The position numbers and the translations under genes were made by a program. 64,000 bases of DNA from Peribolospora baueri (taxonomy: Eukaryota > Basidiomycota > Peribolosporomycetes > Peribolosporales > Peribolosporaceae): positions 62,001 to 126,000 of the forward strand of contig JAMDHS010000060.1 of assembly GCA_029717555.1 (NCBI GenBank), written 5' to 3'. Numbering within the stretch: position 1 is the first letter of the stretch; each line of letters opens with the position of its first letter. The notes beneath the pieces were generated by a model. It ran no database searches and was not told where the DNA came from. It worked only from the letters and a program-made list of their open reading frames with translations. Positions 31,202 through 51,361 of the stretch are shown one piece after another.

Positions 31202-33584
31202 CTAGCGGAACGTCTTCTGCGTGGCCGCCAAGCCGCCGTACGTGCCCAGCTGGAGGCCCGAGGCGGCGCCCAAGAAGCTTCCTGCGGCGGCGCCAAACGA
31301 AGGTCGTTGGGCGGCTCGCGCGGCGGCCTGAGCCTCTCGCCACGCGGCGAGCTCAGCCTCCGCCTCTTCCCACTTGTCTCGCTGCACCTCCTCGCCAGAA
31401 ACCTTGAGCGAGCCCGCCACGGAGGCGCCCACCCAGCCGAACATGTTGGGCGCAAAGGCCGGAGCGCTCCCCGCATCGGCCGGGGATGTGTCAGGCGGGC
31501 TCGGGTCGTTTAGAATCGTCAAGTGCGGGCCGAGGTGGGCGAGCGGGGCCCAAGGATAGGCCACGCGGGCGCTACGCCACAAGGCAGAACCCGACTCTGG
31601 CGGAGGAGTCGATGCGGGGGCCGTCACAGCCATCGAGACGTCGGTGTCCGATCGTGCGCCACCCGGCGACGACATCTCAATAGCAGAGCCATTTGGGCTC
31701 AACGCACGATGAGTCAGTGGGGTAGATGATGATGATGCCGAGAGATGAAGGAGGAGCTCTGCTCGCACACGGGGGATGAAGCCGGGAAGCATTGCGGTGC
31801 CTCCTACGAGGAGAATCGACGACACAAGCGGTTTTCGAAGATCGATGTGCAGCTGAGAGAAGAAAAAGGGAGGGCTGTCAGCCTTCCTGTCACATGATTC
31901 ACACTCAAGTTGAAAGGGTCCATACTGGCATACCTTCATCAAAGCCCCCAGCACCACCTCCACCACGCTCTCCTCATCCAAGTCCCCGCCTTCGAACAAG
32001 CATTCCGCCGCCCTCTCTCGCACCCAACCAGGAATGACGATCGTCCCTCGCCCGAGGGCGCCAGCAGGACCAGCCGGCACGGCGACGTGCGTGCCGACGC
32101 TGCTGGACATCGTCTGTGCCGGAACACGTATGGCGAGGTCGGTGGCCGTAGAGCGAGAAGCGTACATGTCGTGTAATCGACGCATAAGCTCTTCGTCCTC
32201 TGCCTCGTCGTATGCGTGTGGCCCGATGGGATCCGAAACAAAGAGCGCCCGCGCCTTGATCTGTTCAAGGAACTCGTCAGTGAGCACCTCACGCGGAATG
32301 GGGGTGGAGCGGGAAGCGGCTGGCACATGGGCGGAGCCAAAGGTGGCAGGCGGGAGAACGAAGACGCCAAAGTGAAGGAGCAAGGCGCGTAATCGCTCTG
32401 TGAGCCGGCGGCCCGCGCGAGGGGTGGTTCGTACAAGCGAGGTCAGTGGTCGTCCGGAAAAGATCTGGAAGAGTTTAAAAACGCCCGCACGGAGGAGAAG
32501 ACTAAGTGAGAGGCTCATTAAGGCTTAGCAGCTGTCGAGATTTGTTCTCGATCAACGCACAGGGACGACAGAGGTCTCCAAATGTCCACAGTCCACCACC
32601 AGTCCGGTCATCTTCCCGGTCGCCATGACGGAGAGCAAGTGAGCAGGGAGAAAAGAAACAGATTTGACCTGAAAAAAGGCGAATTTAACGTTGCACACAA
32701 AGAGGAATCAGGGGTAATCAATCTCGGGCAGGCTCGATGAGGCGTCTCTTGGCAGGGAAGATCATACACACTTGCAAGTTGGAGAACAAGACTCGGGTGA
32801 TCGTTTCGCGGATCTTGACCGGCTGCAATACATTCTCCAAGACAACCACTCTTCGTGCCTTCAGATCGCCCAGCATGAGGTTCCTTTTGATCGCCAGAGC
32901 CAAAGAGAAAGACAGAATGCATAACACGTGGGAAGGCAAGGAAGGAGGTCAGACGATGCGGCGAAAGCACCGACGACGGAATATGGCCGATGCGCACGGA
33001 AAACGACAGCACGGCGGGAAGACTCACTCGATGAAAATATATCGAAGACAGGCCTGCACCCTTGCCTGAAGCACTGCCTCCACCTCATCCCTGCCCGCTT
33101 CGTCGTGAGCCCTCTCCAAATCCAGGTCCCACAGTTCGCCCGTGCCTGGGCCCCAAGGCACACTCAAGCTCTCGCTCCCTCCGCCGCTGGCGGGCCCTCT
33201 CCCCGCCCCACCACCACCAGTTGTAGACGTGATGTCTGCAACCCCAGAGGGCAAAGGCGCAGGAGCGACTACGGGGGCGGCGAATACGAGCCGTGGCCTC
33301 GGCTCCCCGCTGAAGCCAGCCTTCCAAACACGGCTGCCGAGGTCGAGGACGATGCGGTCCTCGGTGCCATAGATGGAGTGTCGACGGAGAGAGGAGGAGG
33401 AGGAAGAAGAAGAGTAGGAAGATAGAGACGTCCCTGGGGCAGCGCCAGCGACTGTCAAGTGCCTTGAGGAGGCGGACGAGGAACCGGTGGGCCTGCGCTG
33501 GCCGTCAGAGGCGAGCACACGTCGCGCCGGAGCGAGCGCATCGTCGGCGTTGCGAGGCGTCCGTGAGACGGAAGTAGCAGCCAT
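31202..33584 (-). CDS. ARP10: Actin-related protein of the dynactin complex (Arp10/ACTR10)
   Basis: Five exons (minus): 33584-33028, 32883-32772, 32668-32561, 32464-31934, 31852-31202; 652 residues. Actin-fold motifs: IVLDLGSRVWKAGFSGEPRP (phosphate loop 1), RRVVVLENVLQPVKIRETIT, LFSNLQVKSVSFLPAHLLSV, TGLVVDCGHLETSVVP (phosphate loop 2), SSILLVGGTAMLPGFI and AYPWAPLAHLG. This order and the LENxLxPxxIRE motif match ACTR10/Arp10, which caps the pointed end of the dynactin Arp1 filament and helps dynein bind cargo. Much longer than the usual ~400 residues because of Ser-rich and Gly-rich insertions (residues 25-75 and 110-140). MAATSVS at 33584 is taken as start; an in-frame Met at 33710 is possible. 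Confidence 0.88.
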
Positions 33585-34153
33585 TTTCGGTATCTCGCAA
33601 CAGCCCTTCTGCTGTCGCAGTCTCGTTCTGTCCGAATTGGGAATCTTGACTGGTTGTGGTGTCAGCTTGGTCTTGGGAACATCAGGGAATGTTGGTCGTG
33701 GAGAGATCACGTGATTACAATTCCATTCGATGATGGAGGGAAGATATTACCGGGCGGAACGAGGGAAAAGAAGAGCAGAGACGAGGGGGAGACAATTACA
33801 AGGATCGATGCGAGAGATAAAAGTTACCTAGAGGCGATGGGGCAGGAGAAAGAAGACCTTAAAGATGAGCGGGGAGGTGCCCGTTCGTCGTCCAGCGGCG
33901 GAGGGACCCATCGGGGGAACAAAGCGAATGGGACACAGAAAGAGCCAGGGACGAACGAAGCGAAAATTGCGAAAGCAAGCCAAGAGAGACAAGTATAGGT
34001 GAAACGGAGAAAGGAAGTGGCAGAACAGGTACCAAAGGTTTAAACAAAAATGCCTGCACGTCCTCCAGAAGCGAAATACCGATTCAAACGCACGGCAGTC
34101 TACGCAAAGGCCATGCAAGCAGGGTCGTGGCCCGACTCGAGCCGATTCATCGA
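33585..34153. other. Spacer, ARP10 promoter and 3' end of the zinc-cluster gene
   Basis: 569 bp, purine-rich on the plus strand between 33730 and 34030. No gene is seen. Confidence 0.45.
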
Positions 34154-37100
34154 TCAGGCCCTACCCGCCCCATCGCGAGCGCCAGGAGAAGGTGCTGGAG
34201 GAGGATGAGGATGATGAGAGGTCCACTCCTCTCCGCTGCCCACCCACCCCAGCTCAGGCCAGGAGAACTGCAGAGCGCCAAGCAAGGCCGACGAGTCGAG
34301 TCCACCGGACGAGGCAGACGCAAAGACGGAGGAGAAGAACGAATGGGGTTGAAGGTCCGAGACAGAGGCCGGGGCGTTACCGCCGGAGGAGGTGGAGGTG
34401 GAGGCTAGGAGCTCTTCAAAGAGCATTATGCTGTCTTGACCTGACCAGTCGAGCATCGCCGGCGCTTGCCCCGTTGCCGACCCCGTCTCACCGTTGGCTG
34501 CCTGAGCACCTATGGATATGGTGCCGGAGGAAAGCGTAGAACCGGGGCCGACTACGCTGTAGCCTCGGTCGTGGTGAGTCGCTTGCATCGTTTGCGGCAC
34601 CGAGGCGACCTGCTGAACTTGATCGCCGCCACCATCGTGTCGCGTTCCGCCTACGCCGGCTTGCCCATTCGCTGAAGTGTCCCCGTTCTCCTGCTGGCCT
34701 ACAGGTCCGGCATCGGCACCGGCAGACGTTGCAGCTGTAGGCGTCTCATAGATGTTCTGGTGCAAGAAGGCTTGCAAATCAAAGTCCAAGCCGGCATCGA
34801 CCAGACCGGAGATGCCGAAGCCGAACGGCGACGGCCCTTCGCCGCTCGCGTTCGAGACGTTGCTGGAAAACCCGTTAGGGGAGATGACGCCGGCTTCTGA
34901 TGCTGAAGACGGCGGCGCGTGGACGGCACCATGGGATTGAGTTTGGGTTTGATCGTTGGCATCAGCCGAGGCTGTACCGGTCGCCTCCTTCGCCGAAATT
35001 TCCTTGCGTGGTGACCCGGACGGCTGGGGTTGCCTTGCTCCGCTGCGTGCCATCTTGGCTGCCCTTTTCGCCCATTGGATGACCATCTCGACGTCGCGGA
35101 TGCTGGAAAAAAAAAAAAAAAAAAAAAAAAAAACGTAAGCCTCAGTCGGTCATCCACCACGTTTTGATAGAGCCCTACTCACTGCGCCATATGTGCATCC
35201 TCATCCGAAATGTCCGGATCCAGATTCTCCACGCTACCTGAAGCGGCAATCTCCTGGTCCAAAGCGCGCGCCACCCATCCCACGCCACCCCAGTAGACGG
35301 CCAGCTTGCGCAGAACGGCCCTGCACGTCTCGCAGTTGGACTCTGCCCAGCTGCGGGAGAGGAGCACAGAAGTGATCTGGCCAGAGCGACCTCCACCGCC
35401 GCTTCCTCCTCCGCCACCGCCACCGGCGGAGCTATCAGCTGCGCTGTTACTGCCATTCATCCCAGACGTGCTCCCAGGAGGCCCGCCTGCAAGTTTTGTC
35501 GGGCCAGGAGTGTTGGACTGGCTGCGGGGGGTAGACAAGGCGTTGGAAGCCGATTCCCGCTCCGCCCTGGCGTCATGGAGTGACCGGAGCGAGGCAAGGC
35601 ACATTCAGTGCAAGACGTCGAAGAGGAAGGAACGCTAATACGCGTGACCTCTTTTTTATCGCAGCAAGCCAGACCCAAGAAGGCGTGAGGAACGGGAAAC
35701 TTACAAGAAGGTCCTTGCGGCGGGCAAGATCAGCTGATCGAGGAAGGGATTGGCGAGATAGCTCTTGTCATCCAGGGCGTCAGAAAGGGCGAGGATGTCG
35801 ACGATGGTCCTCGAAGCGGTGCGCGCCACGTCGAGAGACGTGTCGGGAGGCAAGGCGACGTCCGGAGTGAAGGACTGCAAGAGGGAAGGACGGTGGAGGA
35901 GGGTGATGGTGGACTGGAAGAGGATGTGAAGGAAGATGAACGCCGGGCCTTGTTCCAACGCCGCCGCTCGCTTGAACGATTGGACGCTGGCAAAGGTGCA
36001 AAAGCGTCGGAGAACGAGGTTGACGCGCCCGCTCGACTACCGTCAACAACTAAGGCAGACTAGATTCCGTCTGCCCTCCGAACTCACTTAAAATGCAGCT
36101 CCGGGGGGAGGGTCTCATAGAAGCGAATGAGGTCTGGTAACAGCAGCGACAAAAAGAGGAGGTGTCTCCGCTGAAGATGAGCACGCTCATTCGTCCAGAT
36201 TCACCTCAGCACCTCCCCAACCCACCGTACTGCAACGAGCTGAGGTACATCCTCCGTTCTTCCGTCGTCGCATCCTGGTTCCTCCGAGCGTTGTTGAGCA
36301 TTTCAGAGATGCGTCCGCGGAGCAACAAGATACGGATGAGATGGGCGAAGATGAAAGCGTGCTTGTTCCCCTCGTTGCGCGTCAAGGGCGGGAGAGATAT
36401 TTCGATCTGGTCTTCCGTGACCTGCGAGTCAATGGAGGAGAGGAGAGAGGAAGCACGATAGGAAAAGAAAGAAGGGCGTGAGCAACATTCACACAACCGT
36501 GTTAGCGAGAGGAACAAACTCACCGAAAGGGGTCTGCCCGTACCGAAACCTGTGGCGGAGAGCAGGATCCCATCAGACCGAGCGATGAATGAGCACGACG
36601 CACGCGACATACCGAGCCACCAACACGAGTCGAGTGCGCTCGTCTCAGAGCCGGAACTCACAAATGATTTGATCAAGCATGACGACGCTCCAGAGCGTCA
36701 GCCTGATCCTCTCGCGTTCCCTCTCCACATCCACTGTATCCATCTCCCCACCACCCCCACCGCCACCACCGCGCCCGGCACCGAAACCGGCACTATTCGA
36801 ACCGATGACCACCATCTCCCCAATTGTCTGTTCATGCAAGAGCCCCAAATCCTGCGCCATCCGAATGCTCATCCCGGTCCACATCCAAAGGCCGCTGTCC
36901 GAGCCGGCCCCAAATTCAGACCAGGCAAGCAAGATGAGTGCCTGGATAACCTCAAGGGAGGGCCAGCTGAGCATGGGGACCACGAGCACTTTGGCCATCT
37001 CGCTAAAGGGTTCGCCCGCCGTTTTGATATTCGGAGCTGGACGCAACGGGTGGTGGCCATCTGTGGATGACGAGGCGTCGGCGCTGGCGCGTGCCTTGTT

Positions 37101-39775
37101 GGTGGCCGAGGCGACCCTACTGCAAATCTCAGGTCTGTCGGAGAACCTGGCGGCGATAGCGCATATGGCGTTGGCGAGAATGGCGGGCAAACTGCCCTTC
37201 TCGATGTCTTCCATCGTCTCCTCTCGATACAGCCAAGGGAACTGGCATCCAAAGGACTGGAAGAAGACTTCGGCAAGGTGGCGCAGCACCGGCTTGACCG
37301 GGTAACGAGGTCGATCAGGCTCGAAAAGGTGGTGGGTGGAGGAAGAAACGGAGGAGGTGTCAGTCATCGCTGGCGAAGAGGCGCTTGCGACGCCGCCGCC
37401 AGAGCCGGTTGGATCCTCCGAATTAGCGGGAGGACAAGAGGCCGGAGGCGCCTGTGCCCTCGGCCCCCGCGTCGTCGTAGCCTTCTCCTTGGCACGCTTC
37501 CTCTTTTCGCCAAGTCCGCCAGCCGCGAACCAGGTCCCCGCCGCATCCTCCCAAGAGCGCGGATCTGGGCCTAGACGCGACTTTGCCCATCCAGGACGGG
37601 GCAAAGCAGTGGTAATTGGCGCGTCTGCTCCCGCTCCTCCGACTCCTCCTCCTCGAATCAAGTTCACCATTCCTTCTTCCTTTTCGGTCTCCTCAGGATC
37701 CACGGCCGCCTCCCGAAGCACGCCGACCTTGATTCGCCGGTACCCAGGCGTGTTGGCCGTGGTGCCGAACCACCGGAAGAATGGCAGACAGAGTCGCTTG
37801 CTGCCGCTACCGCCGGCGGCCTTCAGATCCCCTGTCGCGGACGCGTTCGGCGCCTTCGACGTCATCGGTCGCGCGGTAAAGGGATGAGAGTCATTCGCCT
37901 CATTCCCGTCTCGTTTTCCAAGCTCATGTCCCTCCTCTATCTTCTCAGCCCTTGAGATCGACACCAAGTTGGTATCCTTTCTGTTGACCCTGTCCCCCTT
38001 CCCCACGTCGTTGTCAGAGCCTTTCTCGGAAGGGGCGGCTAGCCTCGCTAGCGCCGAAGGAGAAGGAGAGGACGAATGGTTCGTGCGAGGGTCATGACGT
38101 TGGTGGCCATATCCGTCCTCGACGACGTCCTCGTCTCGAGAACCGGAAGAACGGAAAGAGACGGCCTTGCCTCCCTTCTCACCGGCGGACGGGTCAGCTT
38201 GCGAACGTGAGCGAGATCGATCCTGGAAATGAGGGTGAGACTGGGACAAAGACGGGGATTGGGAAGAGGAGAACGGCGAAGGTGGGCGGCCGTTTCTGCC
38301 TCTTCCTCGGCCATGATCGCCGCGTTCCTTTTGCATATGTCCGCGCAAGTTCGAGTGCCAGGAGGTGGAGGAATGAGTATGGGGATCGAGCGATGGTAAA
38401 CGGTGTTGCGGAGAGCTGGCGAGAGGAGGAGCCGGACCTGGGCCTCCGATAGAAAAGGATAGTCTCGCAAACGGGTACGAAGGGCTCGTTGCGGAGCTGT
38501 AGCCGTCGGTGGGATGGTGTTGAATGGTCTGACTGTGAGTAGACATCTGCAAAGGAGGAGAGTGACCGTGGGATGGAGAGAGGGACAAGTCGAGGGCGGG
38601 GAAGGTGGAGCGGAGGGAAGGTAGAGGCTGCATGGATGGGGGGAAGCTTAGAGGCGGTGAGCCCTGAGACCCTCCCGAATCTACAGGACTGTGGAGAGGA
38701 GGATGACCGAAAGAAGGTGGGCCTTGACCGGTCGCCGAGGGGGCATGAGAAGGAGGGGGCATATAGGGCTCGACGGGTGGCGCAGTTAGTACATACGTAG
38801 ACGTCGCGGGGATTGGCCCTGCGTCGCCTCGTGGATTGGGGACTCCGCCATCGACGCGCGAAGAGAGGTAAGGGTGGAGCTGAGCATCGTGGAACCACTC
38901 GGTCTTTCGCCGTCCGTTGGCGAGGTCGTGTGAAGAAGAAGAAGAAGAGGAGGAGGAGGAGGAGGAAGAAGAAGCAGTGGATGAAGACGCAGCTGCTTGC
39001 CCCAAGCCTGCAAGAGCAGGCAAGGCGGACGGCGGGGCGAGGTGATCGGGGTTGGCCATGAGGTAGTGCTTGGCCCTGGATCTTGCGTCGGACCGTCTTC
39101 TCTTCCCTAGGTGCTGGCCCTGCTCTTTCCCTTTCTCTCCTTCCTCCGTCTTCTCTTCCCCGTCATCGGCCGTCGAGTCGGTCCGAGGAGAACGACGCTT
39201 GGGCGAAGGAACATAGTCGGGGAAGCGGGCAGCGCGGAGGGAAGGGGTGAGGTCGTCGACACGGAAAACGCACGTCTTGCCCGAGGCGGCGCAGTTGTCA
39301 CAGTACGGCCTGATCGGGTCGAGCCTGCATTTGATCTGCAAGGACGACCGACAGACGGGAGGTCAGCGAACCGTGGGCGGGGCGGTCCCCCGAAAAGGCG
39401 TCCCGGAAGAGGAGAGACGCGACCGCTCACCTTCTTTGCTCGACTGCCGACGGGGGAACGCTTGCAACGAAGATCAGCCTTCCTCCTTAACTCGACTAGC
39501 GTCCCAGCCGCCCTGTGTCGTCGTGCTCAAGCGTGGTCCATCGCGCGTTGAACTCACCAAGGCTCGCAAGCGCTAATCGGCCTCGTCCGCCTCTTCGCGC
39601 CAAAAGGGCAAGGGCGTGCGGCAGCCTGGCCGGCGGTGCATTCGTCCATGGACGCGGGCGATTGGGCGGAGACGCTGACTGACTTGGATACGGGAGTGAG
39701 GATGTGAAGGGGGATGGGACGAGGGTGGCGGTGGAGAGCAAGTGAACGGCCGTGCAGGGGAATCGACGTCGACAT
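34154..39775 (-). CDS. Zn2Cys6 fungal transcription factor
   Basis: Nine exons (minus): 39775-39558, 39443-39431 (13 nt), 39335-36662, 36549-36524 (26 nt), 36421-36226, 36133-36088, 35986-35705, 35566-35183, 35102-34154; 1,595 residues in frame. The zinc cluster is assembled over three exons as CEPC, RAKK, IKCRLDPIRPYCDNC, CAASGKTC: six cysteines with CX2CX6CX6CX2CX6C spacing (about residues 71-98). The middle-homology (Fungal_trans) domain follows: PVLRHLAEVFFQSFGCQFPW, SGLWMWTGMSIRMAQDLGL, LWSVVMLDQIICFGTGRPLS, HLIRILLLRGRISEMLNNAR. The stretch in between is Ser/Pro-rich. The regulated pathway cannot be told. The start is ambiguous; an in-frame Met at 39826 would add 17 residues. The last intron carries a 27-nt T run. 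Confidence 0.88.
35107..35133. repeat. 27-bp homopolymer A/T tract
   Basis: An uninterrupted A run on the plus strand. On the gene strand it is the poly-T of the last intron of the zinc-cluster gene, directly before CCAG. Confidence 0.9.
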
Positions 39776-40379
39776 ACGACGACCGAGCAAGTTTGTGGGG
39801 AAGGCAAAGCGGAGAGGACAATACAAGATTTCTAAAGCCGCATTTAGGCCAAGGGTATTGGATTGCTGCGGTACGCTAAGTGCACCTGGCTCTACCCGCT
39901 CGGCTACCTCTGCCAGACACTACTACACCACGACGGATCCAGGGCTCAGGGCCGGGGCAGGCAAGCACGGGGAAGGAGGACGCAACGAGGAGATCGTCCA
40001 ACTCGCGGACTACGAACGAACGATTCTGACACGCGCACAACGACGTAGGGAGCCATCTTTCGCTTCGTGCTTCAGCTCCTCGCGTTTCGCTTGGCAAGCC
40101 GTGTCTCTAGCGATCGACACCAGCAGGCGACGACGACGACGACAAAGGTGTGGTAAATCTCGACGTGCGCTCGCCAGGTATTGTATTCGCCATCAAGGGA
40201 GGTCCCGGGATCCACAAGAAAGGGTTCGGTAGAGGAGAGGAGAGGAGACAAATCCTGCGTCGTCACAACAGCCCGATCGACGGGCGTCGTCTCCCACCCG
40301 TCCCGCGAGCGACACCAACAAAGCTTCGTGGACGAACGGAGGAGGCGGACGGGTGACTGTCGAAGGCGACGAGCGACGA
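39776..40379. other. Promoter spacer of the zinc-cluster gene
   Basis: 604 bp between two minus-strand genes, covering the SRV2 3' end and the zinc-cluster promoter. A GACGAC run lies at 40127-40142. No gene is seen. Confidence 0.45.
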
Positions 40380-42660
40380 TCATCCGGAATGCTCGACGAT
40401 AGTGGTGACAAGCTTTCCATCCTTGACGACAGTCTTGAGCTGCTCGGGGATATTCCTCTCCTCAAACTCGCCTTCCTCGCCTCCCTCGACGGGCAGGCTG
40501 ACGTTGATCGCGCTGCACTTGGCCGTCACGATCTCGGCGTCGAGGCTGTCCTTGGAGAGGAAGATCTGTCCAGAGTCGGTCGAGTCAATGAGGATGGTAG
40601 GCACCTTGCCGAGGATCTGCACGGTGAAGGAAGGCGAGTTTGTGATTTCTAGGGAGGAGACGACAGATTCGAGCAAGACGGCCGTCTTTGTGCAAGAGGC
40701 TAGACAGATGACAAGAAAGAAAGAGCGGAAGACGGACAAAGGAATGCGTCAGCACGCGGGACGCGAGAAAAACCGGCGGCCAGCGGAGGGGGAACGAGGC
40801 AAGTCCAACGGACCGATGGAAATGGCATTGACTTTGCCCTTGACCTGAATGACAGAGTTCTTGCAGCCAAAGATGTTGACGCTGTGATTGAGCTCGGTGT
40901 CCTCGATGATGACGGCTCGGTCGTCCTCGAAATGTTCCTGAGGAAGTCACGGGCATCGAAGAGAGAATTGAGGATATCCTATCTTGCCGTTCCGCTCCTG
41001 ACCTCACCCATATGGCCAGCCATCCCTTCGAACGATACACGTGCACTCACGACGGCCCACTTGCTACCCTCCAACTGCTTCTTCGGCGGCTTCTTCACCC
41101 GGAAGGAAGCCGGTTTGGCGGGTCGCGCCGGCGGCTTCTTAGACGAAGAGGAAGAAGACTGCTGCGAATGGGCGGCCTTGCCTCGTAGCTCGGGGTTCTT
41201 GTGTGTCATCTGACCTGGGTCCACCTTTCTCAGCCCCTTGGAGATGGTTTCGCCCTGGTTCAGCTGTGCGAATACGGAGGCCATGTCGCCTCCACCGGGA
41301 GCAGGCGCGGCCGGGGTGGAGAAGTCGGTCATGACCGGGGGCGGAGGAGGCGGCGGCGGCGGGCCGCTGGCGGGAGGCGCTGGCGCAGCAGGCGCAGAAG
41401 AAGAAGCTTTGGAGAGGTAGGACTCGAGATCGTCGCCCTAGGAGCGAGAGAAGTGTCCGTGGGTGAGCCACAAGCGGCCTCGCTTCGTTTCCGGATTGGC
41501 TCAGCTCACCCTTGGATTCCACATCAGTCCGGTTGTGTGGAACTTCATGATGTACTGGCGGAGATCGTCGAGGAGCTTGGCGTAGCTTCGCGTCCACTCC
41601 ACGTGCTTCTTGTCGCTGGCGAGACCGGGGACGCAGACAGAGCGACGACGAGCGAGGTTTGTTCGTGAACATGAAGAGATGCCCCGCGGTGGAGGACGAG
41701 TAGAAGGTCGACGTACATGTCCTTGTACTCCTTGATCACGCGGTTGGCGTAAAACTGCGCCGCGTCTTTCATCTCGGCGACGAAAGGGCCAGGTTTGGGT
41801 TCCTGCACGCACAAACGACAAGAACAGAGATCGACGTCGGCGCCCTGCTGGTGTAGGTCACCTTTCGTAGAGCATGAGGGCATGCTGCTCACCACCTGCA
41901 CCCATCCGAGGGCGGGAATGCCCTCGCTGACGGTGCTCAAATGGTTGAACAACTTGCTCGGCCGGTTCCTGTCGCGCAACTCGGTGATCTTACCAATGTT
42001 CTCCTGGAAGGGCTCGAGCAATTTCATAAGCGGAGCCGCGGCAGGCTCCTTGGGCTTTTGGGCCTTGGACGCGGCTTTGAGAAGGTCTCTTTGAGCGCCA
42101 AACAGGGCTAGGACGAGGTCGGCCTGGGGGATGGTGAAAGGGTAGGGGAAAGGATGGGAGAGATGAAGGACGAGGACGAGGTGGGAGGGAGAGAGGGTGG
42201 AAATCCAAAGAGGACTGGGCACTCAACCTGCTCCTCTACGAGACCTCCAATCTCCTTGCTCAGCCGGCCAAATTCCTTGACGCTCTCTCCTACCATCTCG
42301 TCGTATCCGACCACAGCCGGCGCGTCCTCGTCCACGACCGGGACGGGGACAGGGACGGGGGCGGGGTCAAAAGCGACAGGCGAGGTGACGGTGACGACGG
42401 AGGAGGAGGGAACGATACCTGCGCCGACCTCAGACGTGGGCTTCATGAGCGCCGCCGAGCTCTGGGCGAGGGCAATGTCCTCGAGGCGGGACGTGGCCGC
42501 TTCCAGTCTGGTACGCGGGCCGGGAAGGGAGGGAGTGAAGTGAGCGGTGATCGCGATAGCCGCCGGCACGCTGCGCTGTGCTGGCCCCTGCCTTGCTCAC
42601 TCACCGCTTGATCAGCGTCTGGAGGTTGCCGACGCCTTGCTGCGGGATGGACGAAGCCAT
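40380..42660 (-). CDS. SRV2: Adenylyl cyclase-associated protein (CAP)
   Basis: Eight exons (minus): 42660-42605, 42507-42228, 42123-41893, 41802-41717, 41615-41510, 41437-41051, 40937-40814, 40699-40380; 529 residues. Order of parts: N-terminal oligomerisation and cyclase-binding helix (TLIKRLEAATSRLEDIALAQ), helical-folded domain (PSKLFNHLSTVSEGIPALGW, AAQFYANRVIKEYK, WTRSYAKLLDDLRQYI), a poly-proline stretch of nine Pro, a WH2-like segment (GLRKVDPGQMTHKNPEL), then the CARP beta-helix (HSVNIFGCKNSVIQVKGKV, SCTKTAVLLESVVSS, FLSKDSLDAEIVTAKCSAIN, IPEQLKTVV). CAP recycles cofilin-bound ADP-actin and links Ras to adenylyl cyclase in fungi. The fit is complete and unremarkable. Confidence 0.95.
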
Positions 42661-43682
42661 GGTTGTGAAGCGTTGAGAGGTGTGGCTGAAGGACAAGGGC
42701 TGGGTTGGTGTGGGTGTCCGTGTAGGAGCCAAGTCGAACGGCGAGGCGAGCATGCTCAGCCGGAAGGTCTCCAGGCACGACGTCGCCGACCTCGGACGGT
42801 GATCGCCGCGCTTCGCCGCCGGGCCTCGTTCGGGGCCCGCACGGGCCAAGGGAAGGAAAGAGAGACATATTACTGTACATACCGTCTTGGAGACGATCGC
42901 CTCGCTGAGGGAAGGGAAGGGTCAAGTCGACGGGGGATGCACGCGGATACACGGTGGAAGGTGGTGTAGCGGACGACGGGCGGGTGGGGCAACTTTCTTC
43001 TCCAAATCCCATCGTGAGCCGTCTCGTGGACCGCTTCCTTTCTGTCTGTTCGCGACTCCTGAGCACGGTAAAGGAGCGCACGTCTACAATTGTTCAAAGA
43101 GGCTCATTCATTGCAACGGTGAAAGAAGATCGCTGGATGCAGCTGGCCGACGGTGGGCGGTCAAGATGGCCGGCCGCCAGCCGTTCCGTTTGGCGACTCT
43201 GCTCGCAATCTACAAAAGGCGCCCGTCGCCTCCCACGTTTCCGTCGCTCTTTCAAGTCGACGACGGCGACGACAGCTCCGCCTCTCCTCCGTCGTGCGCG
43301 ACCAGGTGAGATGGCGGGCTTCGAGCCTGTGCTGGGGCGGTGATTGGAGACCGACCGAGCCTGCGCTGGGGAAGTGAGTGGAGACGGACGGGAGCTATGG
43401 ATGTGGACGTGAGACGATGGCGCCTCGACGAAGCGTCGACGAAGCGTCGACGAGTCGGCAGGTCTTGCGTCTTCGTCTCCGCCTCGATGTCGGACATGAC
43501 GGTGACGGGGTCCGATGGAGAGATAGATATCCGCGACCAGCCGTGATGTAGGAAGGAGGCGAGGACGGGCGGCAGTCGTATATACACACGAGAAGGCAAC
43601 GTGGAGGAAGAGAGAGGAGAGGAAGATGAACGGGCGGCGAAGACGTTTGGCGTTGTTCGCGAGCGGGGGTTTGCCGGCGCCC
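42661..43682. other. Spacer upstream of SRV2
   Basis: About 1 kb with no convincing gene. It holds the SRV2 promoter and the 3' flank of the cysteine-rich gene. A 34-bp unit (CGAGCCTGYGCTGGGG...) is repeated in tandem at 43322-43355 and 43356-43389, and GAAGCGTCGAC is repeated at 43430-43450. Confidence 0.5.
43322..43389. repeat. Imperfect 34-bp tandem dimer
   Basis: Two adjacent copies starting CGAGCCTG at 43322 and 43356 that differ at a few positions. Confidence 0.7.
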
Positions 43683-44330
43683 TCAGACGTCCGTCTTGGC
43701 TGTCCCTCCTTTGACTGCATACCCTGTCGAGCGTGAGGCGAGGCGAGGCGGCAGGTGTCAGTAACTGAGCGTCAGTGTGCACGGACTGGACGGCGACGAC
43801 GTGGATGGAGTTCACCTGCTCGGCAGACGCCTGCCGCTGGAGGACGAGCATGGGCGGATGAGGATGGGTGAGCGCACTCGAAGTGGGCGCAGAAGGAAGG
43901 AGGGAAAGAAAGAGGGAAGACGCACGACAGCCACAATCATCCTTCTTGGGACACGCGACCTTTGCCTCGCTCCTTCGGCACTCGCCAGAGGAGCAGCTAC
44001 AGTCTGCGGCGGCGGCGCAAAGGGGAAGGAGAAGGTGAGCGTCGACTCGTTCGACTCGTTCAACTCGTTCGACTCGTTCGACTCACTCGGCCAAACACCA
44101 CAGGTCTGCTTCGCGATACACTTGTCGACCGTCGTGGGCGGGCCGGGGGGCTTTAGGGCGGCCGTTTGGACGCATTCGCAGCTGGGAAAGAGAACGAGGG
44201 AAGGAAATCGGAGGGAAAGAAATGGAGCAAAGGTTGGTCGGTGGGTGGGTGAAAAGGAAAAGGAAGGTCGCTCGCTCGCTCACTTGACCCTGCAAATGAC
44301 AGTGGGATGGTGCTCGGGCTCCTCCTCCAT
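43683..44330 (-). CDS. Small cysteine-rich, metallothionein-like protein
   Basis: Five exons (minus): 44330-44284, 44181-44087, 44003-43926, 43836-43816 (21 nt), 43723-43683; 93 residues, in frame to TGA. Every splice has consensus sites (GTGAGC, GTGAGT, GTGCGT, GTGAAC donors; CAG acceptors). The product has 12 cysteines, many in CXC and CXCX4C clusters: CRVNCECV, NCSCSSGEC, DDCGCPAGVC, plus DKCIAKQTCGVW. The C-terminus is GYAVKGGTAKTDV. There is no signal peptide, so it is probably cytosolic. CXC clusters and small size fit metallothioneins, which bind Cu, Zn or Cd through thiolates; no known fungal subfamily is recalled, so the function is inferred. Each exon is too short to stand out as an ORF, so this gene is easily missed. 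The second intron holds an ACTCGTTCG-type tandem repeat. Confidence 0.72.
44047..44095. repeat. Tandem CTCGTTCGA 10-mer repeat
   Basis: About five imperfect copies of ACTCGTTCGA/ACTCGTTCAA, mostly within the second intron of the cysteine-rich gene. Confidence 0.7.
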
Positions 44331-44759
44331 GCTATCTTATGCTATGTTATGTTGTGTTGTGATGTGCCCAGGCGAGCCAAGGCTTTTTTCTTTGTCCTGT
44401 CCGTCCGTCTGCTGCCTTTTTTTTTTCGGTTCTGACCTGGTCTTGTTCTGTCCGTTCGTCCGTTCGTCTATCTGATCGTTTGTCTGTCTGTCTGCCTGCC
44501 CGCGTGTGTGTGTGTGTGTTCGCGTGTTCGTGTAGGTGCCGCCTTTCCTGCCTCTGGACGTCGTTTCGTAGACGTCGGTGGGGGAGAAGACGGATGGCGA
44601 GGACGTCAGACGTGCGTGTAATCGCCGCTTGCTTGCCTGCTTGCCTGCTTGCTTGCTTGCTTCGCTCACGGAGACGAGACGAGACGGGCTTGGTATGCTC
44701 TGGGTGGGGGAGCGACGTGGAAGGGAGGTTTCTCTCACGTACAAAGTCCAACCAGGCGA

Positions 44760-44793
<34 letters not shown>

Positions 44794-45487
44794 CGGACAT
44801 GCTTGACATGCTGACACAGCGAACTGAACCGACGCCGCCTCTGATCTCATCCCATCTCATCTCATCTCATCCCATCCCATCCCATCTCATCATCTCATCT
44901 ACATCTCATCAGCCGCGCCGCGTAACCCTAAAACTCGAGCTCGAGCTGATTCAGCACCCAAGGTCGGGTCGATGTAGAACAAAATCCGATTCGATTTGGC
45001 ATTTTGGCTTGGCTTTGAATTGATTGATTGATTGAGAGTGAGTGAGGGTAACGATGATGATGACGATGATGATGATGATGATGAGCTACGACGAAAACCA
45101 ATGTACGAATGTACGAAGGATGGAAGGATGGAAGGATGGAAGGAAAGAGCGGGGGAGCGAGGAAAAGGATGCGCGCAAGAAACGATACGATGAAGAGGGT
45201 AGGAAGAATTGATTTTTTGTCCCTTCGGCTTTGGCTTCGGCTTCGGCTTTGGCTTTGGTTTGCTCGAGTCCGGTCGCCGAAGGGGATTGTCTTGGAGGGG
45301 ACGAGGATGAACGAACGAATGAATGACTGACTGAATGGATGGATGGATGAGATGCGACGGTAGATAAGAGACACAAGATAGAGAGGGAGATGGGGTGATA
45401 GAGATGGACGATGGAGTGGGGAAGGAAGGAAGGGAGGAAGCGATGGCAAGGGGAAGGAATGCAAGACTTCGCTCGACGACCGGCCGA
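44331..45487. repeat. Simple-sequence-rich spacer upstream of the cysteine-rich gene
   Basis: 1.16 kb without a gene. It holds a GTGTGT run near 44508-44520, a GCTT/GCCT run at 44630-44662, (GACA)7 at 44762-44790, CATCT/CATCC pentamers at 44850-44900, GATGAT at 45053-45083, GGAT tetramers near 45117-45143 and 45336-45350, and a GGCTTT/GGCTTC hexamer array at 45225-45262. It should contain the promoter of the cysteine-rich gene; I saw no clear metal-response element. Confidence 0.6.
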
Positions 45488-47383
45488 TCAGACGACCACC
45501 GCACCGTCCCGCGCCATCCGTCCCCTCCCCCTCGCGTCTTCTGCCCCCTCTCCCCCCAAACCACGCGTCCCGATCGCCATGCCTATCGGCACGACGACAA
45601 CGCCGCTTCTCTCCCGCGAGCGAGAGCCGGCGACGTGCCCGGGGAGCGGCGAGGCGGTGCGCTTGCCCGACGTGCCGCGGGCGCGGGAGCGGCCTCTGGG
45701 TGGGGTCGAAGGGGAGGAGGGCATGGGAGTAGCAGAGGGGACGGGAGCGGGCGCTCCTCGCTCCTCGCGACCGCGCTCATGCGGGGAGACGGCGGCGGTA
45801 TCGAGGGGAGACGACGACGCGGGCGCGGGCGCAACGACAGGGCGGTAATCATGATGAAAGGGAAAGACAGCGACGGAGGAGTGGTTGTGTCGGTGAAAAG
45901 ACCTTGTGGTCGTCGGTGTCCGCTGCCTCGTCGCATCCGCCTCGGCAAGCGTCTTCAAGCTTTCCGGGCTCAGCAGCGGGCCGGGACCGGCTCCGAAGCC
46001 GGGGCACGAGGGGCGGTGGCACACGGACACGGACGACACCTCGCTGGAGGGCGCGGCAGTGAAGGAGCGGCCGAGGAGGAGGCGCGAGGGCGAGGGCGAG
46101 GGCGAGGGCGAGGGCATGGGCATGGTGGAGGTCACCGGCAGCGTCCTCTCGTCGCTGGGCGTGGGTGTGGACGACTCAGACAGGTCGCCGCCCTCCGCGC
46201 CGACGAGGCCGGTGCCGGAGGGCAGCGCGTCCATGGTCCTCCTGCGCATCGAAGCGTCGTGGCGCCGCGGGACGTCGTCGGACGAGTGACGGCCTTCGAC
46301 GCGGGCGTTGCGGGCGATGACGGCGCTGCCGACCGATCTGGCGAGCACGGGCGAGACGGAGCCGGGGTGGGCGGTCAAGGTGGGACTGGAGCGGTCCCTG
46401 TGAGCGGTGGCGGAGGTCCTGCGGAAGACGGTGGAGAGGGCGGACCGGATGGGCGCCGGGAGGTTGGTCGTGCTGGGACGACGGGCGAAGGAGAGCGAGG
46501 GCGACTTCCATGGCGAGGGGCGGGCGGTATTGGGCTGCTGCTGCTTCTTCTTTTCCTTCCTCTCTTCGACGGCGGGACCGGCACCGGAGACAAGAGGAGA
46601 GACGGCGGGAGGGAGCTTGAACTGCTCGTCATCGAGGCCCGCATCATCGTCGCCGTCGTCCTCCTCCTCTCGGCTGGTGTGCGAGTAGGAGTACGTTGCG
46701 GGGCTGGGGGCGCTGTCGGTGACGTTGGTGAACGAGGCGCTGGAATAGGGCGACGACTCGTCGTCGTCATCGTCGTCGTCATCCTCGACATCCGAGAGGG
46801 AGGAGAACGTGGACCGAGAGCTGCTCCTGGGCGTCTTGCTCGTTCTCGTCTCGATCGGGAGCATGTTTGGCGTCGCGAGCTTGCGGTCGTGGGCGTGGAG
46901 GGCAGGCGAGGTGAGGGCGAGCTTGGCGCGGGAGGAGGAAGGGATGGGCTGGCCGTCGGCGCCGACGAAGGCAGCCGAGGGGAGCGAGGCGAGCACGGCG
47001 GGCGAGGGAGGGCAAGGGTAGCGGAGGTCTACGGGGAGGCCGTCGTCGTGGTGGCGGCGTCGACGGTGGTCGTCGTCGTCGCCGTCGCGCAGGTCGGGGG
47101 AGCCGGAGGCGTAGGCGAGGGACTTGCGCCTGTCGTCGTCCCTGCATGCGTCAGAGCAATAGAGGAGGCCGCCGGTGGTGGGTCCGGCGCAGTTGGCGCA
47201 GAGGTCGTCGGCGAAGGGGGAGGCAAAGTCCAACATGTCGTCGTCGCGATCGCCGGGGCGCGGGGAGAGGCGACGGCCGCGGCGGTCTTGTTGCTGGCGG
47301 CGGTCGGGGTGATCGTCGGCGTAGGAGGCGGGGAGGAGGGGGTCGTCTAGATAAGCAAAGTTGCGAGCGGTGAGCTGTGGCAT
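45488..47383 (-). CDS. Ecl1-like (life-span regulatory) zinc-binding protein
   Basis: One exon, 631 residues from ATG 47383 (MPQLTARNFAYLDDPLLPAS). The only recognisable domain is a short zinc motif at residues 62-80, LCANCAGPTTGGLLYCSDAC, with CX2CX10CX3C spacing as in the fungal Ecl1/2/3 family that affects chronological life span and stress or zinc responses. The rest is low complexity: an acidic run near SLSDVEDDDDDDDDESS, Ser/Pro-rich blocks, PSPSPSPSPS from a hexamer repeat, and Arg-rich segments. Intact Ecl1 proteins in yeasts are ~80-120 residues; basidiomycete members are longer. The frame stays open upstream to a Met at 47905 (174 more codons), but that part is repeat-derived and reads like leader. 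Confidence 0.65.
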   Translation of the reverse strand: MPQLTARNFAYLDDPLLPASYADDHPDRRQQQDRRGRRLSPRPGDRDDDMLDFASPFADDLCANCAGPTTGGLLYCSDACRDDDRRKSLAYASGSPDLRDGDDDDHRRRRHHDDGLPVDLRYPCPPSPAVLASLPSAAFVGADGQPIPSSSRAKLALTSPALHAHDRKLATPNMLPIETRTSKTPRSSSRSTFSSLSDVEDDDDDDDDESSPYSSASFTNVTDSAPSPATYSYSHTSREEEDDGDDDAGLDDEQFKLPPAVSPLVSGAGPAVEERKEKKKQQQPNTARPSPWKSPSLSFARRPSTTNLPAPIRSALSTVFRRTSATAHRDRSSPTLTAHPGSVSPVLARSVGSAVIARNARVEGRHSSDDVPRRHDASMRRRTMDALPSGTGLVGAEGGDLSESSTPTPSDERTLPVTSTMPMPSPSPSPSPSRLLLGRSFTAAPSSEVSSVSVCHRPSCPGFGAGPGPLLSPESLKTLAEADATRQRTPTTTRSFHRHNHSSVAVFPFHHDYRPVVAPAPASSSPLDTAAVSPHERGREERGAPAPVPSATPMPSSPSTPPRGRSRARGTSGKRTASPLPGHVAGSRSRERSGVVVVPIGMAIGTRGLGGEGAEDARGRGRMARDGAVVV

Positions 47384-47566
47384 GAGGGGCGAGGAGGAGA
47401 GGGCGACGATGTGGGATGTGTGGAAGATGGGCGGAAGGATGCTTTTATATAGAAGTTTTGCGGCCGGGGCGATGACTCGTTGGTCGGTGGGTCGATCGAT
47501 ATCGTCGAGGCGGCGAGAGGAGGCGGGAGTGGTGACGACGGGCGAGGAGGTCGAGTCAGGGGCGAG

Positions 47567-47632
47567 GCGAAGGCGAGGGCGAAAGCGAAGGCGAAGGCGA
47601 AGGAAGGTGAAGGTGAAGGTGAAGGTGAAGGG
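47567..47632. repeat. GAAGGC/GAAGGT hexanucleotide array
   Basis: About ten hexamer units that drift from GAGGGC/GAAAGC to GAAGGC and then GAAGGT. It lies in the 5' leader region of the Ecl1-like gene. Confidence 0.8.
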
Positions 47633-48726
47633 AGCGGTGGTGACCAGAGGGTGATCACTCGAAGGGTACGCGCGCGCGTCGTCGTCGTGGCCGTGGTGGT
47701 GGTGGTCGGTGGAAGACGAAGAGATGGGGGCGTAGGAGAGGGCTAGGGTGAACGATGGGTCGATGGTGATGGAGAAGGAGAGGTGCGAATAAAAAGAAGC
47801 AGGCGAGTCGAGTGGGATGAGGGAGGGAGGGAAGAATGAGGTGCTGAGGAGGGGAGGAAGGGTTCGTTGCAAGGTGATGTGTGCAAGAAGAAGAAAAGAG
47901 GGCACGAGCGGCGGGGCGGGATGAGATGATGGGATGGTGAGATGATGAGATGGGAAGGGTTGGTTGGGTTGGTTGGTTGGTTGGTTGACAGCCAGACAGA
48001 GTCAGTCAGTAGTCGTCAGTCAGTCCTCACTAAGTCAGTCCGTGTCGTCTCTGAGGTACTGAGTCGCCGTCAGGTCATGCCATGTTATGTTACGCCGCCT
48101 TCTTCCTCCTTCCTGCCGCACAACGTCGGTCCACGACGGTGCTTAGTGTGCTCGCGGCGGGGCACGTATCACCATCCCCGCCGCCACACACGCACCCAAA
48201 CCCGTCGTCGTCCATCGGCCGCGACCCAATCCCCATCGTCCCCTCCCATCACGCACTACCCACTCGGAGACTCGGACTATAGCTGCTGTGTCACCACTCC
48301 ACGTAGCCCTCCCCGCGCGGCCGACGGCCGAGCGAGCGCGCGGATCCTCTTTTGTCTTCGCCTCGTTCCTCCTTCAGTGTCGCCTCCCCTTTCCTTGTGC
48401 TGTGCCGTTCTGTCATGTCCTGCCCCGCTCCCTCCCGGACATATCGAATCGAATCGAATCGGATCGGCTCGAAGGAAAGTGTAAGAAGGAAGGGGGAAGA
48501 AAATGGGGACCGAACGAACAAACGAACGACCGAACGCATAAGCCAGGCTCCTCTCTCTTTCCTTTCCTTTCCTCTCCTCATCGCCGCTCGTCCCGCCTGA
48601 GTCAGTCAGTCCGCAGTCAGTCAGTCGTCAGTCAGCAACTTAGCAAGCTCTCCCATTCGAGGCACAGGCGGGCACGCAATGCAGGCAGGGGAGCATTTTT
48701 TGGGTCCTGCCTCAGGGCGCGAGGCG

Positions 48727-48780
48727 GTCACGGTCACGGTCACGGTCACGGTACGGTACGGACGGGTACGGTAACGGTAA
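48727..48780. repeat. GGTCAC hexanucleotide array
   Basis: Four perfect GGTCAC units followed by degenerate GGTACG/GGTAAC units. Confidence 0.8.
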
Positions 48781-49889
48781 CTAAGTAAGCCCCGGTGAGG
48801 TATGGAGGGAGGGTGCAAGCGGCGGAGACGGAGAAGGTGCAATGCGATGCGATGCGTGCGTGCTTGCTTACCCGCCTGCCTCTCGCCGGCTGGCTCGCTG
48901 GCTGGCACGCCTTCTCGGGCACCCACGAATCGCGGCGGCGCGTGCCGGGAGGAGGGAGAACGGGAAGGAAAAAAAAAAGGGAGCAGAAGAAAACAAAAAA
49001 TAAAAAATAGAAAATTCGTCGTCGAACGGCGCCGATGCCGTGCGTGACGTGACCGACCCGCCTTGCCACGTGCGCCTCCGGAACGTCCCCAAAAGGCAGC
49101 ACGTTGCGTTGCGCTCTGTCAGCCACCGCAACCGCAGCCGCAGACAATGCTGACTGCGGCCGGTCTCACTTTCGTCAGCCACCGCGCGCCGGGCCGTTCT
49201 GTAGCGCGGACCACGTGCCCCGCCTGCGTCCTGACTGGGTGGACTGGGTGGACTGGATTGGACTCGCCCAAGTCGGGCGACTGTCCGTGTCTCGTCTTGT
49301 CTTGTCTTGTCTGACTGAGCACGGTCGCCGCCCACCGAGCGAACAAGAAAGAACAAGCATCCGCCCGTTCCTTTCTTCGCCTCCTTTTTCTTTCCTTTTC
49401 TCTTCGTCGTCGACCGTCATTCGCTAATACAATACAGCCAGCCAGCCGCGGGATGTCCGCGAGTTGTCCCCATGTACTCGCCGCGCCGTGTGCCAGCCAG
49501 CAAGAAAAAGGAAAGAAAGGAAGAAAGAATGCACTCGGACAATGACCGAAATCGCTTGAAACTAGGGAGCGTGCCTGCGGAAAAGGAAAATAGACAAGAG
49601 AGGCGAGACACGAGACAGACGGACAGACGAAGACACGCATAATACATAGTCAAACAGACAGACAGACAGACTGGCTGTCACCCGGCACGGCACGCGCACA
49701 TGGCGCTGCGGCTGCGGCAATGGCCCTGCAATTCGCGTTTCTTTCGCGACGCGACGCGACGCGCCGAGGGGAGCGAGTGAGGACGCAACCGGTCGACCTG
49801 TCCTTGCTCGTCGTCGTCCTCGTCGTCGCTCGCTCGATACCTTCCTCCATTGCCCTCTTTTACTCTTCCTATCTTCTCGCACCCCGTTC

Positions 49890-51361
49890 ATGCTTTCTTC
49901 TCACGTCCCGGCTCACAAGAGGTGAGTGAGTGGCTGGCTGGTCGGTAAGATAGAGAGATGGATGGGAGGTTGGATGGACATATGGACAGATGGATACACA
50001 CATGGACAGGCGCGAACGTCTTTCTGACCCCTCCCACCCCACTCTCCAGGTCCGTCACCCGCCAATATGGCTCCAACAAGCGTCAGCGCATCGCCCTGCC
50101 CGACCACCCCGCTCCTCCTCCTTTTCCTTTTCCCTCCACCCCAACCCGCACCGCTTATTCGTCTTCTAGCCCGCCTACGTCGCCCCCGCCCGCGACGCCC
50201 CCCGCCGCGTCCACCATTCCGCCGTCTTTTTTCAAGGCCCGCGAGAGCGACAAGGAGAACGCCCGTCCCGTCACCGTCGCCATCCGCGACCACCGGCCGG
50301 GCGAAGGGAAGGACAACCGTACCGGCGCTCGGACGGGGACGGGGCAGGCGACGCTCGACGCCTTCTTCGCACCCGTTCCCACGAGGGCGAAGACAAAGAC
50401 AAGGGGCACGGGCCTCTTTGATTCGCAGCCAAGGTCCGCCTCCTCCATCTCTCGCTTCTCTTCCTCTGCCTCCTCCGTCCCCGAGCAGCTCATACTCGAC
50501 CTTGGCCAGGCCTCCGCGCTCACGATCCACTGTGCAACGTGCGGCATGTCGTACGCCCGTGGTGCACCCGAGGACGAGGACCTCCACGGCAAACACCACA
50601 AGAGGGTGGTGCGCGGGATCGAGTGGCCCAAGGCGGGCGTGAGGGGACAGGTGGACGTTGGCGGCGTCGAGTGGGTGGCCGCCGGGCGGCAGGAGAAGAC
50701 GGTCGAGCAGCGGATTTTGGTCGTGCCGTGTGCCGCCGGTGACGCATCCTCGTCGTCGTTGTCGTCGTCGTCGTCGTCATCCTTTCTTCCCCCAAAAATA
50801 CGAGAAGTCCTTTCCACAATCGACACCGAGCTCGGCGCCGTACCTCTCTCTGCTCGAGCGCTCGCCGGATGCAAGATATTTCTGTGCTTGAGGGGAAGGA
50901 CGGTCGTTGGTGCTGCGGTGGTCGGCAGGATTGGCGTGGCGAGGAGGGTGAGACTGGTGGAATCGACGGGGTCAGGCGATGCGGTCAAATTGGGGGCGGG
51001 AACGAGGAAGAGCGAGGAGGAGGAAGAGGACGGGGCGGTGTTTGTCGAGTGCGTCTTCCCTCTGCCGGTCATCATCGCTCTCCTTTCTTCGCTCACCCTC
51101 CCTTTCTCTACTCTACATGCCAGCCCGACGCCGCACCCGACCACCATCGGCATCCACCGCATCTGGGTCTCCTGCACCTTGCGTCGCTCCGGCATCGCCT
51201 CACTCCTCCTCAACGCCGCACTAGACCGCTTCATCTACGGATCCCCCAAGGGTGCCCTTGACAAGGCACGCGACGTCGCTTTTAGCCAGCCTACGAGGAG
51301 CGGTAGAAAGCTCGCGGAGAGGTGGACGGGTCGTTCGGATTTTTTGGTGTTTGATGAGTGA
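49890..51361 (+). CDS. ECO1: Cohesin (sister-chromatid) acetyltransferase
   Basis: Two exons, 49890-49921 (MLSSHVPAHKR) and 50050-51361, give 447 residues. The N-terminus has SVTRQYGSNKRQR, typical of Eco1/ESCO, and a PCNA-interacting box QATLDAFF that ties acetylation to replication forks. A C2H2-type zinc finger follows: CATCGMSYARGAPEDEDLHGK with HHKRVVRGIEW. The acetyltransferase core ends with IGIHRIWVSCTLRRSGIA (acetyl-CoA loop), AFSQPTRSGRKLAERW and FLVFDE. It acetylates Smc3 to lock cohesin in S phase. A KEN motif (DKENARP) precedes the PIP box. The first intron is full of GGAT/GTGA repeats. Confidence 0.93.

Follow-up and report, generated by a model that had tools for sequence, protein, structure and literature searches.

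Multi-exon fungal metallothioneins with tiny exons have already been published (PMC4755600, PMC12508003). The gene for TmMT of Tremella mesenterica consists of 10 exons of 63-105 bp with introns of 48-204 bp, and its product carries 57 cysteines in 257 residues (about 23%), arranged in a repeated unit of seven cysteines, CXCX3CSCPPGXCXCAXCP (PMC4755600). Such genes are described by the authors as often misannotated because of their short exons, the earlier annotation of the Cryptococcus CnMT1/2 genes is given as wrong, and the Neurospora-type copper metallothionein is listed with 26 residues (PMC4755600). Among agaricomycetes, AcMT1 and AcMT2 of Agaricus crocodilinus are encoded by four and three exons, respectively, with introns of about 50 bp, and an internal duplication was proposed for the lengthening of AcMT1 (PMC12508003). 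Phytochelatin synthase was tied to tolerance of cadmium and copper in Sporobolomyces, a basidiomycete yeast, where metallothioneins appear in the authors' account only as another chelator class possibly serving fungi without this enzyme (PMC4410428). In addition, a paper on Rhodotorula toruloides names an orthologue of CUP2, the activator of Saccharomyces metallothionein genes (PMC11134681). Titles on metallothionein genes of Rhodotorula, Rhodosporidium and related red-yeast genera were absent from the matches listed, which is no proof of absence from print.

The window analyzed here is a 64,000-nucleotide stretch of a Peribolospora baueri contig, in which the original prediction had placed a five-exon metallothionein-like gene on the minus strand. 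Exact reconstruction returned all five exons at the sizes claimed (47, 95, 78, 21 and 41 nt), and the junctions described as consensus sites are those of four introns (102, 83, 89 and 92 nt), each beginning with GT and ending with AG. The resulting 282-nt coding sequence runs from an ATG to a TGA and gives the expected 93-residue protein with 12 cysteines, in which three CXC and two CXCX4C motifs were counted, in agreement with the clusters first reported. The parts of the gene, in coding order, are:
44284-44330, minus strand: exon 1, 47 nt, with the ATG; residues 1-15 and 2 nt of codon 16; one cysteine
44182-44283, minus strand: intron 1, 102 nt, phase 2, GTGAGC...CCCAG; the pyrimidine tract is strong, and the sole branch-like site, TTCAC, is weak
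44087-44181, minus strand: exon 2, 95 nt; four cysteines, namely a CxC and the first cysteine of repeat unit 1
44004-44086, minus strand: intron 2, 83 nt, phase 1, GTGAGT...CGCAG; a branch-like site, CTCAC, lies 36 nt from the 3' end
43926-44003, minus strand: exon 3, 78 nt, symmetric phase 1-1; the cysteine core with six cysteines, CSCSSGEC...CPKKDDCGC
43837-43925, minus strand: intron 3, 89 nt, phase 1, GTGCGT...TCCAG; here too a branch-like CTCAC lies 36 nt from the 3' end
43816-43836, minus strand: exon 4, 21 nt, symmetric phase 1-1; PAGVCRA, one cysteine
43724-43815, minus strand: intron 4, 92 nt, phase 1, GTGAAC...GACAG; two branch-like CTGAC sites
43683-43723, minus strand: exon 5, 41 nt; C-terminal GYAVKGGTAKTDV and the TGA stop; no cysteine

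The start codon has an A at -3 and a G at +4, and an in-frame TAA lies nine bases upstream. It had been claimed that an open frame requires the removal of all four introns, and this is nearly so: retention of intron 1 brings a stop after 16 residues, but among the 16 retention combinations examined intron 4 kept alone leaves a closed 94-residue frame with 12 cysteines, and introns 2, 3 and 4 kept together leave a closed 138-residue frame with six. The cysteines were also said to fall in three exons; they are carried by four, with 1, 4, 6, 1 and 0 in exons 1 to 5, and intron 3 interrupts the second CXCX4C, whose parts lie in exons 3 and 4, so that its removal makes the second CxCxxGxC whole. 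Judging from the exon lengths, exons 3 and 4, both symmetric, could be gained or lost with the frame kept. Tandem repeats were noted inside two introns, with a 9-nt unit at 44042-44084 (intron 2) and a 14-nt unit at 44184-44227 (intron 1). The locus is probably a small spliced cysteine-rich gene that is missed by scans for open reading frames, as was originally stated, and the same trouble is documented for fungal metallothioneins (PMC4755600).

The full five-exon product, MEEEPEHHPTVICRVNCECVQTAALKPPGPPTTVDKCIAKQTCGVWPNCSCSSGECRRSEAKVACPKKDDCGCPAGVCRAGYAVKGGTAKTDV, has cysteines at residues 13, 17, 19, 37, 43, 49, 51, 56, 65, 71, 73 and 78, separated by gaps of 3, 1, 17, 5, 5, 1, 4, 8, 5, 1 and 4 residues, and its cysteine fraction of 0.129 compares with a maximum of 0.022 among 18 other predicted genes. 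An N-terminal C-x3-C-x-C precedes two 22-residue units, which align without gaps (residues 39-60, AKQTCGVWPNCSCSSGECRRSE; residues 61-82, AKVACPKKDDCGCPAGVCRAGY) and have A-K-x2-C-x5-C-x-C-x2-G-x-C-R in common. The score of this repeat was reached by 21 of 5000 shuffled proteins, and it was marginal (213 of 5000) when the cysteines were held fixed. For motifs picked after the protein had been seen, two C-x5-C-x-C-x4-C units were found in 15 of 200,000 protein shuffles and two C-x-C-x4-C in 1638 of 200,000, while three CXC are not unusual for a protein with 12 cysteines (29,974 of 200,000 shuffles have as many). Since the joining of exons 3 and 4 completes the second unit, that junction is supported independently of codon statistics. 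The protein has one tryptophan, one tyrosine and no phenylalanine, and residues 20-36 and 79-93 are free of cysteine. Its start, examined by eye, is acidic and without a hydrophobic stretch, so the protein is most likely intracellular; a secreted cysteine-rich or EGF-like protein was rejected on the same ground.

Compared with the described systems, the locus resembles the Tremellales metallothioneins in that the TmMT gene likewise lies in many tiny exons and encodes modular repeats. The TmMT core CSCPPGXC is similar to CSCSSGEC and CGCPAGVC of the present protein, with the inner glycine in common, and the core of the latter can be written C-[SG]-C-[PS]-x-G-x-C. However, TmMT has seven cysteines per unit, whereas here there are four per 22 residues (C-x5-C-x-C-x4-C) and a cysteine content of 13%, and the Tremella unit pattern had no match in the protein in either a strict or a relaxed form. 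The agaricomycete heptaCys metallothioneins are also small and multi-exon and share the sub-motif C-x-C-x4-C, and an unusual C-x5-C of AcMT1, a spacing found in the present units too, has been described (PMC12508003). The heptaCys motif given there, C-x4-C-x-C-x2,3-C-x-C-x4-C-x-C, is absent from the protein, also with x5 as the first gap, and heptaCys proteins are of up to 59 residues (PMC12508003) versus 93 here. By pattern comparison, the only sub-motif shared with the compared fungal types is C-x-C-x4-C. The Neurospora-type copper metallothionein has seven cysteines in the pattern CxCx5CxCx3CxCx2C; it is a small protein with CXC-based thiolate clusters, as are predicted here, but its pattern is not matched by the present protein of 93 residues and 12 cysteines. 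The mismatch with fungal cysteine spacings that had been claimed was, therefore, borne out for the Tremella, heptaCys and Neurospora patterns alike.

Profile searches, which had been proposed with metallothionein profiles in mind, returned no Pfam family for the whole protein or for two core fragments at E values up to 10, and no NCBIfam family for the whole protein. In the PDB at E up to 10, the whole protein gave three weak unrelated matches (E 2.3-8.3) and the core gave none. Relatives of the protein, and of a part of the neighboring adenylyl cyclase-associated protein CAP through which a syntenic fungal contig was sought, were looked for in viral, bacterial and archaeal collections, seeded from short exact peptides; these scans say nothing on fungi. 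They gave 4 and 7 pattern matches in viral contigs and 69 and 57 in bacterial and archaeal contigs, none of which was upheld by tblastn. The core peptides, searched as text in the literature, matched only the Tremella paper (PMC4755600), through its own motif. Over the window, nothing was found with Rfam at gathering scores or with ARAGORN.

The proposal of a thiol metal-buffer protein was upheld in part: a spliced cysteine-rich gene is supported and the chemistry is reasonable, but the protein lacks a Pfam, NCBIfam or related PDB match and a match to the three fungal patterns compared. Metallothionein-like chemistry is a reasonable inference from the sequence because of the 12 cysteines, the three CXC and two CXCX4C, and the acidic, non-hydrophobic start; metallothioneins have few or no aromatic residues, and this protein has one tryptophan and one tyrosine. 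The description of metallothioneins as short, cysteine-rich and CXC-spaced suits a protein of 93 residues with 12 cysteines and three CXC, which at 13% cysteine lies at the low end. In the proposed mechanism, the 12 cysteine thiolates, most of them in the two 22-residue modules and the N-terminal C-x3-C-x-C, would wrap d10 metal ions in clusters, for which Cu(I), or Zn(II)/Cd(II), are the candidate metals, and the protein, if expressed, may thereby buffer and detoxify metal as metallothioneins do. By analogy with known metallothioneins, 12 cysteines would correspond to about four Zn(II)/Cd(II), while for Cu(I) the number might rise to about eight, and without metal metallothioneins have little fold. 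We, therefore, consider it somewhat more probable than the opposite that 44330-43683 on the minus strand is a real four-intron fungal gene for a 93-residue intracellular cysteine-rich protein serving as a metallothionein-like metal buffer.

A structural role for the metal would be unlikely, though not negligibly so: the spliced gene would be real, and its product would be a small structural zinc-binding or regulatory protein with one structural zinc per C-x5-C-x-C-x4-C unit. Four cysteines per unit would fit one zinc site, the 13% cysteine, together with one tryptophan and one tyrosine, is at the low end of what metallothioneins show (TmMT has 57 cysteines in 257 residues), long stretches (20-36 and 79-93) are without cysteine, and a metallothionein profile match is absent. 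On the other hand, Pfam at E up to 10 contains no zinc-finger or other domain family that matches, and CXC spacing generally favors clusters over isolated metal sites. The tesmin-type CXC pattern was likewise unmatched in the protein, and a tesmin CXC domain was rejected. Within the favored metal-buffer reading, it is a tentative and rather doubtful extension that the protein represents an unrecognized fungal metallothionein family built on a 22-residue, four-cysteine module, A-K-x2-C-x5-C-x-C-x2-G-x-C-R, which would lie partly on symmetric phase 1-1 mini-exons that could be added or lost in frame and would have been overlooked throughout its lineage owing to exons of 95 nt at most.

The gene model was evaluated with a home-made semi-Markov gene finder that combines codon usage, donor and acceptor profiles, a branch site and intron length, with penalties and starting consensus set by hand. 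It was seeded with eight Pfam-matching open reading frames and retrained, excluding the target region, on genes it had itself predicted in the window, and the final training rounds contained 13 genes and 152-154 introns. Although blind to the target, the finder called the five exons exactly, with a score of 19.25. Against 154 training introns, the four donors stood at the 70th, 79th, 31st and 46th percentiles and the four acceptors at the 90th, 25th, 64th and 33rd; the intron lengths (83-102 nt) fall inside the 25th-75th percentile span of the training introns (78-116), and introns 2, 3 and 4 contain CTNAC branch-like sites. GC at the three codon positions was 0.57, 0.58 and 0.71, versus 0.61, 0.51 and 0.73 in the other genes.

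As a check of the finder, seven of nine Pfam-matching open reading frames lay inside a predicted gene on the same strand. The two that were missed, 9810-10781 on the minus strand and 27034-28398 on the plus strand, are overlapped by opposite-strand predictions, so the training set of 13 contained two genes that are at least partly wrong, and the test was, therefore, redone with five Pfam-consistent predicted genes (53 introns). The frame at 9810-10781, which matches the STL11/RBM22 splicing factor (PF21369, E 1e-25), was missed because a plus-strand gene was predicted across it. The finder also fuses adjacent genes, as in a prediction at 31202-39775 that covers two Pfam-matching frames from different families, and its outer exons for both neighbors of the target are unreliable. 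Some scans covered only 42000-46500, which cuts CAP; a wider scan of 36000-49500 gave identical counts of exact models. Default scoring penalizes cysteine codons because cysteine is rare (about 1%) in the other predicted genes, and an alternative cysteine-neutral scoring, in which cysteine is set at its background frequency (2.7%), was chosen after the target had been seen.

Coding bias was measured with a synonymous codon score that disregards amino-acid content. The coding frame had log-odds of 4.5, the two alternative frames -9.6 and -3.5, and the observed score was reached by resampled synonymous codons with P = 0.001 under the usage of the 13 genes (5000 draws), by 22 of 5000 draws under that of the five Pfam-consistent genes (P 0.004), and by 95 of 5000 under that of the nine Pfam-matching frames alone (P 0.019). 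The coding frame scores best of the three in exons 1, 2 and 3. In exon 5 the score is negative in all frames and least so in the coding frame, and exon 4, with its 21 nt, offers too few codons for such a test, another frame scoring higher there. Codon usage lends exons 4 and 5 little support.

This bias bears on the very improbable reading that the locus is a splice-like chain, cysteine-rich by accident, in repeat-rich intergenic DNA, against which its P values of 0.001, 0.004 or 0.019, depending on the training set, also stand. When chains were picked for maximum cysteine, 28 of 300 shuffled windows did at least as well as the target. In the real window, the five-exon model was itself slightly surpassed by two chains: a four-exon variant of the target locus and a single plus-strand frame at 44296-44475. 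Cysteine density by itself is thus no proof of a gene and was rejected as such. The tandem repeats inside introns 1 and 2 also favor accident. With the finder trained on 13 genes, 60 dinucleotide-shuffled windows yielded 869 null genes, counted without regard to length; 35 of them reached 19.3, every one with at least 10 exons. In 155 further shuffles under the cysteine penalty, 19.25 was reached by 16 of the 1582 null genes that had no more than nine exons, and by 3 of 1166 null genes of up to 150 residues. Under cysteine-neutral scoring (156 shuffles), however, the target's 31.5 was reached by none of 1190 null genes of up to 150 residues, the null maximum being 23.9. A cysteine fraction of 0.129 was reached by no null gene of at least 60 residues in the full sets of all lengths (2215 cysteine-penalized, 2378 cysteine-neutral). 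Moreover, the four introns are typical in signals and lengths, whereas 11 of the 12 cysteine-maximized null chains listed are single open frames, unlike the four-intron gene.

The junctions were tested in sets of 100 perturbed runs, in which the training genes were resampled and the penalties varied. With 13 training genes, the exact model was returned in 53 of 100 runs under the cysteine penalty and in 97 of 100 under cysteine-neutral scoring. With the five Pfam-consistent genes, the corresponding figures were 28 and 90 of 100; the unperturbed call was exact under neutral scoring, and a model reading through intron 2 was preferred under the penalty, which makes the junctions of intron 2 the weak point. 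The exact junctions are, therefore, not robust under cysteine-penalized scoring, and the main rival to the five-exon splicing is reading through intron 2. Among the 47 non-exact runs obtained under the penalty with 13 genes, 30 read through intron 2 (29 of these continuing into CAP), 13 used an exon 3 donor 9 nt earlier, and four ran otherwise into CAP; the 72 non-exact runs obtained with five genes comprised 48 with intron 2 read through, 13 into CAP without read-through, eight with the earlier exon 3 donor and three otherwise different.

Such runs lend some weight to the improbable reading that the region is transcribed and the model partly wrong, with intron 2 kept, with exons 3-5 different and the cysteine core partly lost, or with the exons forming part of a longer gene extending into CAP. 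In the same direction, the read-through frame, which is that of exon 2, gives intron 2 a coding score of +3.59, exons 4 and 5 carry little codon signal, and retention of intron 4 also leaves a closed frame. The read-through frame, however, loses the core cysteines of exon 3 and gives this exon a synonymous score of -4.45, versus +1.35 in the five-exon frame, and exon 2, intron 2 and exon 3 read through total +1.13, versus 4.41 for exons 2 and 3 in their five-exon frames. The high exact counts of the cysteine-neutral runs and the repeat motif that is completed by splicing, which codon statistics cannot see, argue for the five-exon model as well. Since the cysteine-penalized result weakened under stricter training, the metal-buffer gene as the leading explanation is held slightly less firmly, and the weights of a partly wrong model and of chance were raised.

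The surroundings of the gene, and other genes of the window, were predicted as follows:
44331-44950, minus strand: upstream spacer of 620 nt that contains simple repeats and is presumed to hold the promoter and 5' UTR
44951-48175, minus strand: predicted upstream neighbor gene with a short cysteine motif, DDLCANCAGPTTGGLLYCSDAC
43012-40380, minus strand: downstream neighbor gene for the adenylyl cyclase-associated protein CAP (PF21938); predicted first exons doubtful
3293-3929, plus strand: predicted three-exon gene, 132 residues
14262-17300, plus strand: long reading frame with a homeodomain (PF00046, E 6e-14)
49949-51358, plus strand: ESCO1/2-type cohesin acetyltransferase with a zinc finger (PF13880, PF13878)

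The size of the spacer suits a promoter, and a search of its 620 nt for metal-response motifs in their consensus forms found one copper-type site, versus 0.31 expected, and no MRE, Yap1 or Zap1 site. This gives no clear sign of metal response, although metallothioneins confer or regulate tolerance to metals and are often induced by them. The cysteine motif of the upstream neighbor has a weak Pfam match to Ecl1, a TORC1 inhibitor family (24.3 bits, below the cut-off of 28.3); Ecl1-type proteins bind zinc. The product of the gene at 3293-3929 is presumably a parvulin-type peptidyl-prolyl isomerase. A fungal transcription-factor domain (PF04082) is present in the window, which together with the many predicted introns points to an intron-rich fungus.

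If the gene is real, it would add a cysteine spacing beyond the three fungal metallothionein types compared, and it would be another case of genes in exons of 21-95 nt that escape scans for open reading frames, while the understanding of metallothionein function would stay as it is. The pattern C-x5-C-x-C-x2-G-x-C-R, with a module length of 22, may serve in searching related fungi for overlooked metal-buffer genes.
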